Source of the DNA: a virus
Virus record (IMG/VR): IMGVR_UViG_3300017752_000187
Location: 1 to 22,241 of that record
Strand: one strand, 5' to 3'
DNA: 22,241 nucleotides
The notes under the pieces are model-generated. The model did not search any database. It was not told where the DNA came from and saw only the letters and a list, made by a program, of their open reading frames with translations. The translations under genes and the position numbers were made by a program. Shown here in pieces: positions 17,254 through 22,241 of this stretch (the stretch's first letter is position 1; each line of letters begins with the position of its first letter).

Positions 17254-18822
17254 ATGCAAGAAATTAAACCAAATTTAAGGCAGTCCCAAGGGGACAACGT
17301 AATCGGATTCCCAGATGTGTTCAAAGGAACATCTGCAAATGATTCTGTTGTTAAGCCAATCCAGATGCAGAAGGCTGAAGAAGGTAAACCTTTCAGTGGT
17401 TCTCGAAGTGGTGGAGGTGTATCTAATGTAACTCCAATTCTCAGTGAGATTCAAGCATCATCAGAACTTTCTATGGAGGAGTTGGCAAAACAAACTGAGA
17501 TCCTAGAAAGAATTGATAACAATACTGATACTCCTGTGGAGAGTGCTGGCGGTCAAACGCCACCGACCACAGAAGCAGAAATCAGAGCCAAATTAAATGA
17601 AAAGCAGCCAATTGACGAAGAACAAGGCGACAAGATAATAGGCTCTCTTGCTGAGTTAAACAAAAACAGCATGAAGACAACAAGTTTATTGGCTTTGGCT
17701 GGTGCGTTTGCTGGATCTCAAATGGATCTTATCTCAGAGACTTTGAAAAATATGTGGAATAACATGTCCACATCAGAAAAGGTTCTTGCAGGTATAGCAG
17801 CAGGTGTTACTGCATTGTTGATAGCAAGAGGACTCGGGCGTCTTGTGCCAAAGTCATTGAGAACGCCAACAACCAGAACGCCAAAAACCAAAACACCACC
17901 GCCAAGGCAGGGTCCACCATCGACACAGCCCAAACCACAAACACAACCCAAACCACAGAGTGCACCGCCAAGGCAGAGTCCACCACCATCACAGCCGAAG
18001 CCACAGCCATCGCCTACATCATCAACAAAACCGCCTACACCAACAACAAAACCACCTACGCCAACAACAAAACCGCCTACGCCAACTGGTCCAAAAACAT
18101 CGGTGGCAAGGACAATAGCGCAGAGACTTCCAGCAAAAATTGCTCAGATAGCGACAACCTCTGCTGCTAGTGGTCCAGCTGCAGCAGTCACAGGTACTAT
18201 ATTAACAGTGGCTTCAGTGTATGAGTTATCTGCTTTGGCATTGAGGGAAGCAGGATATGGTAAACACGTTGATGCATTTGAAGGAGGTGTGGTCAATCTT
18301 CTTGGATTTGATACCGAGGAACAGGAAGAAGCAAAAGATATCGCAAAAATTCTTATGAATGCGAAAAAATACGATGCCCTTTCTGCGCAAATAGATGCAT
18401 CCGATATGTCGGAAGAAATGAAAATTGCAGAAAAACAAGAGTTGCGAATGGCACTAGACAATAGTGGCGATGTTGACTGGATCGGTGATGTTGATGCCAG
18501 AAAGGCTGACAGAGTATTTTCTTTTTATGAGAAAAAATATGGAGAAGTGGATTTAGACGCGCCACCGCCTGCTGCGACTACTCCAACGCCAAATACTGCT
18601 ACCAACATCGAAGTGGAAACAACTAAGTCAAAAGAAGCTGACATGAGTCAAATTCAGCCACTGCAACCACCACCACCGCAAGCTGCACCGCAAGTTATCG
18701 TTAAACCAACGCCACCACCTGATGTGAACGTGACTGCAACATTGCCAAGAACAATGGTTCCTTCAGAACCGACATCGCGAGCATCTCAAGCAAGAATTCC
18801 TAACCTTGCGTTCGGCTTTTAG
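17254..18822 (+). CDS. Probable tail tape-measure / hub protein (gp29 position)
   Basis: 522 residues; T4 gp29, the tail-length protein, is 590. I do not see a family motif, so the call rests on position and architecture. It directly follows the gp26 frameshift pair, the usual place for a tape measure after its chaperones. Layout: a helical N-terminus with MEELAKQTEILERIDNN (74-90), hydrophobic stretches at 143-160 (SLLALAGAFAGSQMDLI) and 176-197 (VLAGIAAGVTALLIARGL), a Pro/Thr/Lys-rich linker (204-280), another hydrophobic Ala-rich segment (300-329), a helical acidic-basic region (355-400), then a second Pro-rich region (436-490). Hydrophobic segments are typical of tape measures, which can enter the host membrane during ejection. 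The long proline-rich linker is unusual for a helix-based ruler. Alternative: a hub-associated structural protein of unknown role. Confidence 0.6.
   Translation: MQEIKPNLRQSQGDNVIGFPDVFKGTSANDSVVKPIQMQKAEEGKPFSGSRSGGGVSNVTPILSEIQASSELSMEELAKQTEILERIDNNTDTPVESAGGQTPPTTEAEIRAKLNEKQPIDEEQGDKIIGSLAELNKNSMKTTSLLALAGAFAGSQMDLISETLKNMWNNMSTSEKVLAGIAAGVTALLIARGLGRLVPKSLRTPTTRTPKTKTPPPRQGPPSTQPKPQTQPKPQSAPPRQSPPPSQPKPQPSPTSSTKPPTPTTKPPTPTTKPPTPTGPKTSVARTIAQRLPAKIAQIATTSAASGPAAAVTGTILTVASVYELSALALREAGYGKHVDAFEGGVVNLLGFDTEEQEEAKDIAKILMNAKKYDALSAQIDASDMSEEMKIAEKQELRMALDNSGDVDWIGDVDARKADRVFSFYEKKYGEVDLDAPPPAATTPTPNTATNIEVETTKSKEADMSQIQPLQPPPPQAAPQVIVKPTPPPDVNVTATLPRTMVPSEPTSRASQARIPNLAFGF
18025..18087 (+). 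repeat. 21-bp tandem repeat, three copies (TKPPTPT)
   Basis: Three consecutive 21-bp units near ACAAAACCGCCTACGCCAAC encode T-K-P-P-T-P-T three times (residues 258-278). Units differ at only two or three positions, so the array is young or under homogenisation. It lies inside the proline-rich linker, which also has looser QPKPQ and PPRQ repeats upstream. Confidence 0.9.
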
Positions 18823-18924: not shown

Positions 18925-19845
18925 TTAGTCGTCTTCAGCCAACTTGGCGAAGTATGACAAAGTGTCATCTTCATCATCGTCAGTATTAGACGCAACTGAA
19001 ACGGCAGGTTTTGAAGGAGTCGAATCAACAAAGATTTGATCTTCTACATCTCCAGTTTGTTCTGCCACTTTCTCAGCAGTAGTTACTTTCGCACCACCAG
19101 CCAAGACCATATTCAGCTTTTGCTTCAACTCATCATAAGACTTGAAGTTTTTGGGATCAACGATCTCTGCAAGAGAGTGTTCCTTTTCCCATAGACCTTC
19201 AATGTCTGCATCTTCAGGAGCGATAGGAGTAGGAGTTGTTTCAAACTCAGACTTGTCATAGTTGCGATATCCGTCAACCTGACGTGCCTTCAATTTGAAG
19301 TTTACACCTTCCCAGAAATCAAAGGGATTTACTGGTGTCTCATCCTCGAACTGAGGTTGCATAACGTCTTTGATTTTGTCAAAGATTTTCTTACCGAACT
19401 TGTAAAGCATAACCTGTCCCTCATTCTGAGGGTTGGCAGGATCTTTAACAACAAGAACATTTGCATAGTAAGAGAGTCTACGCTTTTGCTTACGAGCCAG
19501 ATCTTTATTAGCATCCGTACCGCTGTTCCACAACTCACTGTTGAGTTCTGATACAGGATCTTGTTGGTTCAGAGTTGTAAGGGAGTTTTCGATATACCAC
19601 TTACCAGTTGGACCTTGGAAACCATGGTTGAACATACGAACCCATGGAAGTTCCTCGCCCTTTGGTGCTGGCAAAAAACGAAGAACGGCATAACCATTAC
19701 CAGCGGAATCTACAGAGAGTTTCCACTCGTTACCGTCATCTTTTTTGTAGTTGGATTGAGGGGCATCAATTTTTTCGACTTCTTTCATCAGGTTGTCGAA
19801 GGAACCTCTTGCTTTACGCAAGTCAGATAGTGAATTAAACGACAT
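18925..19845 (-). CDS. 32: Single-stranded DNA-binding protein gp32
   Basis: 306 residues; T4 gp32 is 301. The core aligns closely with T4: EWKLSVDSAGNGYAVLRFLP (40-59), NHGFQGPTGKWYIE (73-86), KRRLSYYANVLVVKDPANPQ (121-140), NEGQVMLYKFGKKIFDKI (141-158) and WEGVNFKLKARQVDGYRNYD (178-197). The basic-Ser motif at 119-126 (KQKRRLSY) corresponds to the T4 KRKTSY segment. The acidic C-terminus (TDDDEDD and a final EDD) is the protein-interaction tail that recruits gp59 and polymerase. T4 zinc ligands Cys77, Cys87 and Cys90 are not present: after H74 and WYIE the sequence is NSLTTLNQQDPVSE. gp32 coats ssDNA in replication, recombination and repair and represses its own translation in T4. GGAG lies 6 bases before the ATG. 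It is followed by a strong terminator. Confidence 0.97.
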   Translation of the reverse strand: MSFNSLSDLRKARGSFDNLMKEVEKIDAPQSNYKKDDGNEWKLSVDSAGNGYAVLRFLPAPKGEELPWVRMFNHGFQGPTGKWYIENSLTTLNQQDPVSELNSELWNSGTDANKDLARKQKRRLSYYANVLVVKDPANPQNEGQVMLYKFGKKIFDKIKDVMQPQFEDETPVNPFDFWEGVNFKLKARQVDGYRNYDKSEFETTPTPIAPEDADIEGLWEKEHSLAEIVDPKNFKSYDELKQKLNMVLAGGAKVTTAEKVAEQTGDVEDQIFVDSTPSKPAVSVASNTDDDEDDTLSYFAKLAEDD

Positions 19846-19904: not shown

Positions 19905-20480
19905 TCAGTATTTATAAAGATTCTCACCTACATACCTCATCTTGTCTGTTAATTTGACAAACGGTCGATATTTCCTTATGAGTAAATTAATGCTCTCTAA
20001 GAATATATCATCACCATTATCGCTCATTTTGAACAATTTGTCAAGCAAAACTAGCGTCTCAATTGATATTTTTTTACCAAGATATAGACGATAGACTAAT
20101 GCGTGTTGTCCACTATCAGCGACAAATGGGTTGGAAATGGATTCTTTCTCCATCTCCAGTTTTATCAGTTCGATATCTTGCTCAAACTGATAATCTCTTC
20201 TCGCCTTGCGTGCCTTCCATTCCTTATAGACTTCAGCAGAGCGAGTATCAAACATCCCACCCCACTTATCTCCAGAAACAAAGTTTGCTACAAGCAAGTC
20301 GATAATCTCTTTCTTTTTGTAGTCTCTCGCAAGTTTACGCATTGCAATAATATCTTTCCTTTTCAGGAATGCCTTCTCGCTCGCCTTCACCGCACCACGT
20401 GTCTTTGTGATGTCATACTTCTCAGTTGTGAAGTGGAGTTTGAGAGCGAGATATAATTTGTAAACCTCAAACGGATCCAT
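19905..20480 (-). CDS. 59: DNA helicase loader gp59
   Basis: 191 residues; T4 gp59 is 217. The N-terminal motif MDPFEVYKLYLALKLHFT (1-18) followed by a basic stretch ASEKAFLKRKDIIAMRKLAR (33-52) is characteristic of the family. GDKWGGMFD (70-78) and a basic/acidic helix (KEWKARKARRDYQFEQDIEL) follow, and the C-terminal domain has LIRKYRPFVKL. In T4, gp59 binds gp32-coated fork DNA and loads the gp41 helicase. The order 33-59-32 is the same as in T4. Its start overlaps the gp33 stop by one base (TAATG). The last codons, Leu-Tyr-Lys-Tyr-stop, contain a TATAAATA octamer that points at gene 32, so the end of this gene doubles as a promoter. Confidence 0.95.
   Translation of the reverse strand: MDPFEVYKLYLALKLHFTTEKYDITKTRGAVKASEKAFLKRKDIIAMRKLARDYKKKEIIDLLVANFVSGDKWGGMFDTRSAEVYKEWKARKARRDYQFEQDIELIKLEMEKESISNPFVADSGQHALVYRLYLGKKISIETLVLLDKLFKMSDNGDDIFLESINLLIRKYRPFVKLTDKMRYVGENLYKY
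19909..19916 (-). promoter_or_regulatory. T4-type late promoter for gene 32, inside gene 59
   Basis: Exact TATAAATA on the minus strand in the last codons of gene 59. A start about 6 bases downstream (near 19903) gives a leader of about 58 bases before gene 32. A small hairpin, GTCC/GGAC with a 9-base loop (19888-19904), would lie at the very 5' end of that message. T4 also gives gene 32 its own promoters. Confidence 0.65.
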
Positions 20481-20776
20481 TACAGAGGCAACTTCCCAGA
20501 CTTCTCAAACTTCAGAAGGTTGAGTTCTGATGCCTCCACTTTAATTTTATCTTTCAACGATGTAGTCAGGAGTTTCTTGACAGATTCAATCTCCATCGTA
20601 TTCTTCTCGCAAAAGGCAACAATTGTATCAATGTATCCAGAACCAGTCCTGACCGCTTCTTTCTCAATGTGCTGAGAGAAGTCCGAAGAACTTTTAAACT
20701 GCTTCGTGATCAGATATTCATCTGTGACTTGGGAAGCATCCGTGGTCATATCGTTATCAACTACTACTTTCGGCAT
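20480..20776 (-). CDS. 33: Late transcription coactivator gp33
   Basis: 98 residues from the chosen start; T4 gp33 is 112. The second half, GSGYIDTIVAFCEKNTMEIE followed by SVKKLLTTSLKDKIKVEASE and LNLL, aligns in order with T4 GYIIEAMVEQFGMSYLEATT...FIPSGIVEKIQSEAIDENLL. In T4, gp33 binds the beta flap of RNA polymerase and the sliding clamp and activates TATAAATA promoters together with gp55. A longer open frame reaches 20866, but the ATG at 20776 has an excellent AAGGAGAT six bases upstream and gives the family length, so it is chosen. The first 20 bases overlap the upstream epimerase gene and the stop overlaps the gp59 start. Its presence fits the late octamers in this window. Confidence 0.85.
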   Translation of the reverse strand: MPKVVVDNDMTTDASQVTDEYLITKQFKSSSDFSQHIEKEAVRTGSGYIDTIVAFCEKNTMEIESVKKLLTTSLKDKIKVEASELNLLKFEKSGKLPL

Positions 20777-21596
20777 GAAATCTCCTTTTCCAATCTCTAA
20801 TATATTCAATGACATCATGGCTCCTTTTAATATATGGGTTTTCACAAAGTGTTTTTTCAGCTTCACCTTTCACATCAAACTCGTGGACAGTAGGGTGATC
20901 AAATGCCTCTGCTATTTCTAGAATCGTATATGGATGGTTAGATCCAAAATGCGCTTCCTTTATCTTCTTGTTTGCAACAACTAGGTTAGCGACACCCATT
21001 GCAACATCTTCAACGTGGGTGAAATCTCTGGACTTCTTTCCCGATCCAAATATCCTAAGACTTTCGCCCTTTTCAATTTGATTCTTGAATGCTCTGACAA
21101 CGGTGCTGTGTTCACCATAATCCGCTTCTCTTGGTCCATAGACGTTATAGAAATACATAAGGTGAAACTTTAAATTGTAATTCGTTTGATAGAAAAACAA
21201 TAATTCCTCGCACATCGCCTTGCCGAATGTGTAAGGATTTGCATAGACATCGCTAAATTGAACGCTAGAAGACTGTGCGAAATATAAAGGACAGTTATGT
21301 TTGGATGCCCATTCGCAAACAGAAATGGTTGGATTTACGTTATTTCGTATAGACCCTGCAGGATCATTAATTGACGCTCTGACCCTTGGAGTGTTTGCTA
21401 GATGAACGATAGCATCACAGGGTGGAGGTGTGACATTACACACATCATCGAAGATATAACTCACGTTTGAGTGAGAAGATACATACCTTCCATTTCTTCT
21501 ATCATCGATTACAGTTATTCTATAATCACCTTCTGCCAAAAGATCAACTAAATGACTTCCAATAAATCCGCAACCACCTGTGACTATAATATGCAT
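20757..21596 (-). CDS. NAD-dependent sugar-nucleotide epimerase/dehydratase
   Basis: 279 residues, an extended short-chain dehydrogenase. The N-terminal Rossmann motif is GGCGFIGSHL (7-16, G-x-x-G-x-x-G type), followed by VIDDRRNG (29-36) where the acidic residues suit NAD. HLANTPR (65-71), AQSSSVQF (107-114) and the catalytic Y122-x-x-x-K126 (NPYTFGKAMCEE) are present, then YFYNVYGPR (148-156) and RDFTHVEDVA (190-199). This is the layout of UDP-glucose 4-epimerase, dTDP-glucose 4,6-dehydratase and UDP-glucuronate decarboxylase relatives; the substrate cannot be told. Such genes in phages may serve to alter host surface sugars or to make a modified sugar for virion or DNA. It is slightly shorter than the usual 310-340. 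The ribosome-binding site GAGG lies in the last codons of the cell-wall hydrolase gene upstream. Confidence 0.9.
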   Translation of the reverse strand: MHIIVTGGCGFIGSHLVDLLAEGDYRITVIDDRRNGRYVSSHSNVSYIFDDVCNVTPPPCDAIVHLANTPRVRASINDPAGSIRNNVNPTISVCEWASKHNCPLYFAQSSSVQFSDVYANPYTFGKAMCEELLFFYQTNYNLKFHLMYFYNVYGPREADYGEHSTVVRAFKNQIEKGESLRIFGSGKKSRDFTHVEDVAMGVANLVVANKKIKEAHFGSNHPYTILEIAEAFDHPTVHEFDVKGEAEKTLCENPYIKRSHDVIEYIRDWKRRFHAESSS

Positions 21597-21598
21597 AC

Positions 21599-22108
21599 TT
21601 ACCTCGGTCTGTAGAATATGTGCGAGTCAATTTTGGCAGTGATGTGCATCGTCTTGTTCCAGTCTGGATCTACATAATCAGCATGGTAGAATAGCGCACC
21701 ATCTGTTATGTCGAAAGTAGTTTCAAGTGCTTTCTCAGCCAGCATATAGATTTCAACATACTTCTGCAAATTCTTTACTTCATCACTCTTACCATCACAA
21801 TACCATGAGAATTGACATCTATGTTTGTATGGATAATACACTCCCTTACTTTTTGTTATGTAATGTGGTGCTTCGTAAACCACCTCACAAATTGTACTGG
21901 GGAATGCGCTCGATTTTACTCTGTTTAATGTAACATTAGCGACTGCCAACATACCAGCAGTTGACTCGTTTCTTGCTTCATGATAGATGTTTTGAGCAAG
22001 GCAAGCCACCTTTGGTTCAATTGGTGCACCAAGTAATGCGGTGGCTTCATCTACTGGATTGGAAGCAATCGAAATAAGGATTGCTGTCAACGGATCAAGA
22101 AATTTCAT
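21599..22108 (-). CDS. SleB/CwlJ-type cell-wall hydrolase, probable endolysin
   Basis: 169 residues. The family (Hydrolase_2, SleB/CwlJ lytic enzymes) is marked by LAQNIYHEARNES (37-49) with the expected catalytic Glu44, then AVANVTLNRVKSSAFPSTIC (55-74), CQFSWYCDG (98-106) and GALFYHADYVDPDW (137-150). These enzymes cut the glycan backbone of peptidoglycan. The first 22 residues (MKFLDPLTAILISIASNPVD) are hydrophobic and could be a weak signal or signal-anchor sequence, although only one Lys precedes the hydrophobic part. No holin is seen next to it in the window. Because gp5 here has no lysozyme domain, this may be the main lysis enzyme or, less likely, a virion enzyme. AGG precedes the ATG by 7 bases. 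The gene directly follows the probable outer-membrane protein. Confidence 0.88.
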   Translation of the reverse strand: MKFLDPLTAILISIASNPVDEATALLGAPIEPKVACLAQNIYHEARNESTAGMLAVANVTLNRVKSSAFPSTICEVVYEAPHYITKSKGVYYPYKHRCQFSWYCDGKSDEVKNLQKYVEIYMLAEKALETTFDITDGALFYHADYVDPDWNKTMHITAKIDSHIFYRPR

Positions 22109-22123
22109 AATATAACCTAAAGA

Positions 22124-22241
22124 TTAGAACTTAACGACTACGCTTGTTCCCAAGAAATCGTCAGTCTTGTTGCCATCGCCATCTGTGTTGTATTCGTAAA
22201 ATACACCAACACTCAAAGCATCAGACAATGCATAATCTATT
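22124..22241 (-). CDS. C-terminus of a probable outer-membrane beta-barrel protein (partial)
   Basis: The right edge holds 38 codons and a TAA stop on the minus strand; the start lies outside. It reads YALSDALSVGVFYEYNTDGD, then GNKTDDFLGTSVVVKF. Alternating hydrophobic residues in two strands, a Asp/Asn/Gly turn and a final aromatic residue (Phe) after VVVK are the classic last hairpin and beta-signal of Gram-negative porin-like proteins recognised by the BAM machinery. It lies 15 bp before the cell-wall hydrolase. With so little sequence a beta-rich virion protein remains possible. Confidence 0.6.
   Translation of the reverse strand, partial: IDYALSDALSVGVFYEYNTDGDGNKTDDFLGTSVVVKF

Follow-up and report, generated by a model that had tools for sequence, protein, structure and literature searches.

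A predicted outer-membrane beta-barrel encoded between a two-piece tmRNA and a cell-wall hydrolase in uncultured T4-like marine phages

What protein lies behind a phage gene whose product ends like an outer-membrane beta-barrel, and why would a phage carry it beside a cell-wall hydrolase? The question is raised by the last bases of IMG/VR record IMGVR_UViG_3300017752_000187, which was analysed over its whole length of 22,241 bases (the window) and in which the gene of interest is broken off at the right edge. An earlier note, made from the sequence alone, had seen in this ending a phage-carried, porin-like outer-membrane protein encoded in an operon with a cell-wall hydrolase and a sugar epimerase.

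The interrupted gene, its complete copy and its neighbours

The minus-strand frame 22240-22124 translates to ...IDYALSDALSVGVFYEYNTDGDGNKTDDFLGTSVVVKF followed by a stop (codon 22126-22124), the remaining two minus-strand reading frames are closed across the same interval, and base 22241 is the final base of the interrupted codon. The partial frame had been placed correctly to within 1 base, and the strand-turn-strand-VVVKF ending described for it is indeed the peptide obtained by translation. The genes of this end of the window are the following:

22124..22240, minus strand: predicted outer-membrane beta-barrel protein, C-terminal 38 codons and stop of 195 amino acids, cut by the right edge (translation; complete gene in contig L082, 1028-1615)
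21599..22108, minus strand: cell-wall hydrolase, Hydrolase_2/SleB-like, probable endolysin (Pfam PF07486, E 1.2e-25; PHROG 938 endolysin, E 4e-22)
20757..21596, minus strand: NAD-dependent nucleotide-sugar epimerase (Pfam PF01370, E 5.7e-35; PHROG 540)
20480..20776, minus strand: gp33-like late-transcription coactivator (Pfam PF16805, E 3.6e-20; PHROG 254), an internal ATG being taken as the start where the mechanical open reading frame opens at 20866
19905..20480, minus strand: gp59-like helicase loader (Pfam PF08993, E 1e-12; PHROG 269, E 1.6e-47)
18925..19845, minus strand: gp32-like single-strand DNA-binding protein (Pfam PF08804, E 9e-46; PHROG 224)

The hydrolase gene begins 15 bp after the barrel stop and encodes a full Hydrolase_2 domain (90.5 bits against a cut-off of 27), so that hydrolase and epimerase are same-strand neighbours of the barrel gene, as the proposed operon implied. 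The "cell-envelope cassette" also suggested for these genes holds in part: the position of the barrel is occupied by envelope proteins in relatives, but the genes downstream of the epimerase are transcription and replication genes of the gp33, gp59 and gp32 types. Further along, a 522-residue proline-rich open reading frame (17254-18822) lies between baseplate-type genes and gp32 and has no Pfam or PHROG match.

A search of IMG/VR with the window fragment, the query being read through its stop codon, returned seven contigs (L082-L088). One of them, L082, can be aligned with the reverse-complemented window over 3,144 bp; the overlap contains 4 mismatches, all of them outside the barrel segment and the first far from it, and the hydrolase and epimerase encoded in the two contigs are 100% identical. 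L082 can thus be taken to represent the phage population of the window. This near-identical contig supplies the full gene that the earlier note had wished to see recovered (L082, 1028-1615, 588 bp, 195 residues). The copies in the other six contigs are 95-97% identical to that of L082, and dN/dS values of about 0.09-0.17 between L082 and these homologues indicate purifying selection. Another phage contig, L093, encodes a 203-residue homologue that is 47% identical. The frame at the edge is a real gene and not a chance reading frame.

A predicted barrel outside the established families

The complete protein starts with a clear N-terminal signal peptide of textbook type, MNKFILGAAAVAFSISPAHA followed by VEDY (...SISPAHA/VEDY), read by eye and with a hydrophobicity check. 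The mature chain of 175 residues contains zero cysteine and 15% aromatics, has a net charge of -11 and is devoid of a hydrophobic helix (best 19-residue hydropathy 0.68). Its alternating hydrophobic, lipid-facing pattern exceeds that of shuffled chains (z 2.7-3.75), the mean alternation score being matched by just 3 of 5,000 shuffles. The window protein and those of L082-L088 end in a terminal Phe (...SVVVKF); the L093 homologue ends in ...GLSIK, without an aromatic last residue.

An AlphaFold model built from 4 sequences is all-beta and of medium confidence (pLDDT 65, pTM 0.56), and modelling the mature chain without its signal gave a worse result (pLDDT 54). About 10-11 strands are predicted in the mature chain of the medium-confidence model, where a closed outer-membrane barrel would have an even number. 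Almost all of the 50 PDB matches listed by Foldseek are outer-membrane barrels of many families, including OccD2, OmpG, PcoB, chitoporin, NanC and KdgM, at E 3e-3 and weaker (none passing 1e-3) and TM up to 0.57. In a viral structure library the model matched phage porins and outer membrane proteins, among them one of Aeromonas phage phiAS5, with six matches at E below 1e-3.

Profile searches place the protein near known families but inside none of them. It aligns over residues 8-195 to positions 3-175 of Pfam OMP_b-brl (PF13505; E 6e-4 to 9e-4), with scores of 19.9 and 20.5 bits that fall below the gathering cut-off of 28.7 bits and thus short of membership, and partially to DUF2490 (PF10677; E about 1e-4), again below gathering (22.9 and 22.5 bits against 29.8). 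PHROGs and NCBIfam profiles gave nothing useful. Beyond L082-L088 and L093 in IMG/VR, no sequence relatives were found in isolate phages, plasmids, GTDB genomes, PHROGs, NCBIfam or PDB sequences, and a search seeded with the L093 protein recovered itself alone. Matches to Vibrio phages (E=10), to a gokushovirus (E=0.2) and to antibodies among PDB sequences were dismissed as chance. The barrel belongs to no established family.

Taken together, the signal peptide, the 10-11 or so strands, the barrel-type pattern and the fold matches support the idea of a phage-carried outer-membrane barrel, which on this sequence and model evidence the protein very probably is. The earlier note had let its reading depend on the full gene having a signal peptide and not proving to be a fibre or decoration protein without barrel topology; the signal is present and the fold matches are membrane barrels. 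Its term "porin-like" stands as far as an outer-membrane barrel is meant but is too specific as a porin label for a mature chain of 175 residues with no porin-family match. A classical 16-strand trimeric porin, with a mature barrel of about 300 residues, was rejected on the same length. For the oligosaccharide porins KdgM and NanC there is fold likeness alone (TM 0.42-0.47), with no Pfam or PDB sequence match.

The position between the tmRNA and the hydrolase

The window stops short of the next gene upstream, which in L082 is a circularly permuted tmRNA of alphaproteobacterial type (656-998) ending 29 bases before the barrel gene. It scores above gathering in Rfam (alpha_tmRNA 98.2 bits, tmRNA_permuted 113.6 bits; RF01849, RF04321) and its tag peptide is ANDNFAFEDYALAA. 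Complete permuted alpha-type tmRNA genes also occur in T4-like phage contigs L002, L003, L004, L083, L084, L094, L098-L105 and L107, and the tags in such contigs include ANDNFAFEDYALAA, ANDNFAYEGFALAA and ANDNYAHEDYALAA. The type of the tmRNA suggests an alphaproteobacterial host; the exact tag motif had no match in GTDB genomes. However, phage Melnitz combines an alphaproteobacterial-type tmRNA with a gammaproteobacterial host (PMC9004378), so the host may belong to another class.

The motif TATAAATA is found at the tmRNA start in 16/16 loci compared, nearly always with TTGAC in front. The window has 7 copies of it, where mononucleotide shuffles predict 2.6. Boxes noted at the following positions lie for the most part 10-70 bases ahead of a gene start:

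14696 and 15163, plus strand: TATAAATA boxes
4062, 9508, 14727 and 19916, minus strand: TATAAATA boxes, that at 19916 lying upstream of the gp32-like gene

This enrichment and placement fit a T4-type late promoter, while the TTGAC box means that host-type early transcription is also possible. The operon would then start at TATAAATA, a T4-type late-promoter box, and be expressed late, and the cell probably produces barrel, hydrolase and epimerase at the same time.

A pattern search derived from the tmRNA yielded 47 contigs. Between the tmRNA and the same hydrolase lie the barrel in 7 contigs, a cupredoxin in 5, a 102-residue membrane protein in 4 and nothing in 9, counts that come from non-independent samples, the barrel set being essentially two haplotypes. 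The cupredoxin carries a signal peptide and a Copper-bind domain (Pfam, E 1.4e-15) and has no match in isolate phages at 1e-5. It and the membrane protein follow the tmRNA in hydrolase-less contigs too, the cupredoxin in nine of them (e.g. L120, L148). Its location is:

L003, 5549-5998: cupredoxin directly after the viral tmRNA; also in L118, L126, L130, L139 and L140

The position thus looks like a swappable slot for cell-envelope genes, or for none. Over the barrel gene the DNA of two phage lineages (the haplotypes) is 91-99% identical, but their flanks agree less well, at about 67-72% in the hydrolase and, for the 5' portion of the tmRNA, about 70%. This difference suggests that the barrel was transferred from one lineage to another as a single piece. 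In L093 the homologue has a glycosyltransferase-like gene immediately on either side (weak matches to GT8 and GT25, below curated cut-offs, in a single contig).

Other arrangements were seen among the relatives. In L149 (4489-9788) the same tmRNA element is followed by CsgG (E 2.9e-45) and then by an unusual phage gene set, comprising a secreted repeat protein that is curlin-like by eye and has no Pfam match, a FecR-domain protein and a CHASE2/nucleotidyl-cyclase protein. The 138,660-base contig L097 encodes an epimerase (77%) without a preceding hydrolase and with a 141-residue acidic open reading frame in its place, the contig having no tmRNA match. Glutamine riboswitches lie downstream of the epimerase region in L098 (8729-8832), L100 (5432-5534) and L101 (4274-4376).

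Proposed role and comparison with known systems

We propose that the barrel is exchangeable cargo, carried between a permuted tmRNA and a cell-wall hydrolase by an uncultured T4-like marine phage. During infection the signal-peptide-bearing protein would be exported by the host cell and inserted into its outer membrane, where it would most likely alter the cell surface and thereby keep competing phages from adsorbing or injecting (superinfection exclusion or surface masking). We give this whole chain, from export and insertion through cargo in the slot to a surface change directed against competitors, a probability of about 40%. Among cargo roles a surface change is favoured by the neighbourhood of the homologue in L093 and by the published reading of glycosyltransferase islands in pelagimyophages, whose glycosyltransferase genes were linked to O-chain change and avoidance of superinfection (PMC7029224). 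The superinfection role itself is offered tentatively; a lytic phage profits less from superinfection exclusion when expression is late than when it is early.

The main rival sees the barrel as a small channel or porin through which a nutrient or metal passes during infection, the gene being metabolic cargo. Raised uptake is the simple explanation given for the phage CsgG pore (PMC7029224). The slot also houses the cupredoxin, a periplasmic redox protein, and some of the fold matches (KdgM, NanC, OccD2, PcoB) are substrate channels. However, the lumen of a barrel of 175 residues and about 10 strands is usually filled or narrow, matches to porin and transporter families do not reach threshold and the fold matches are non-specific, which makes an uptake pore unlikely, at perhaps one chance in a few.

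A part in lysis is less probable still. The barrel could weaken or open the outer membrane and thus allow the neighbouring hydrolase to complete lysis, in place of a spanin, and the 15 bp spacing, the common strand and the shared late-type promoter are in line with such a pairing. Yet the hydrolase directly follows the tmRNA in nine relatives and is preceded by the cupredoxin or the membrane protein in nine more, and the 47% homologue in L093 does not adjoin a hydrolase. The hydrolase readily occurs where the barrel is missing, and what takes the place of the barrel is again an envelope protein; optional cargo for the envelope is therefore a better description of the barrel than a component of lysis.

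The medium confidence of the model and the Pfam matches below gathering would also suit a periplasmic or surface-attached all-beta protein with a signal and no true transmembrane barrel, but the alternation pattern, the terminal Phe, the full-length OMP_b-brl alignment and the almost uniformly outer-membrane fold matches make this quite improbable. That the protein is a fibre or decoration component of the virion is hardly credible: all-beta composition is common to many tail proteins and the phage has structural modules nearby, but a clear signal peptide is unexpected in a virion protein, most close relatives lack the gene, as would be expected of cargo, and the structural matches are to membrane barrels rather than to fibres.

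A more far-reaching reading, held to be somewhat less likely than not, is that of an undescribed phage barrel family that is mobile as a module. Its place would be a slot reserved for envelope genes immediately 3' of the two-piece tmRNA of T4-like marine phages, which would swap barrel, cupredoxin and membrane protein there and so reprogram the host envelope during infection. No description of the barrel family or of an exchangeable slot behind the tmRNA was found in the limited open-access literature consulted. Phages that export outer-membrane proteins can alter both host uptake and which other phages infect; a slot bounded by the viral tmRNA and the hydrolase is a defined place to seek envelope genes in T4-like marine phages, and its swapped alternatives permit a direct comparison of their effects.

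The phage itself is distant from isolates: among isolate phages the best DNA match covers 5% of the query at 73.8% and falls on gp32 of a Synechococcus phage, and its baseplate proteins share <40% identity with isolate phages among the matches listed. Phage-borne outer-membrane proteins are already known, such as Lc of the lambdoid phage PA-2 and Lom of lambda, as is the two-piece tmRNA beside gp33 in Melnitz. Similarity to the barrel at the fold level is seen in phage proteins such as the BFVD entry "OmpC Outer membrane protein (Porin)" of an uncultured Caudovirales phage and the phiAS5 outer membrane protein; these BFVD phage entries share 10-14% identity with the barrel, with no detectable sequence homology, and the barrel is shorter than the OmpC type. 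The CsgG curli pore of pelagimyophages and Melnitz is likewise an outer-membrane gene of marine T4-like phages (PMC7029224, PMC9004378), and in L149 it follows the same tmRNA element as the barrel does in L082; however, CsgG is a lipoprotein multimer, whereas the window barrel is a single chain without Cys, and the two have no sequence relation. Finally, the two-piece tmRNA of Melnitz is, like that of L082, permuted, of alpha type and upstream of the gp33 coactivator (PMC9004378), but in the phage of L082 and the window the tmRNA is separated from gp33 by the variable slot and by the genes for hydrolase and epimerase.
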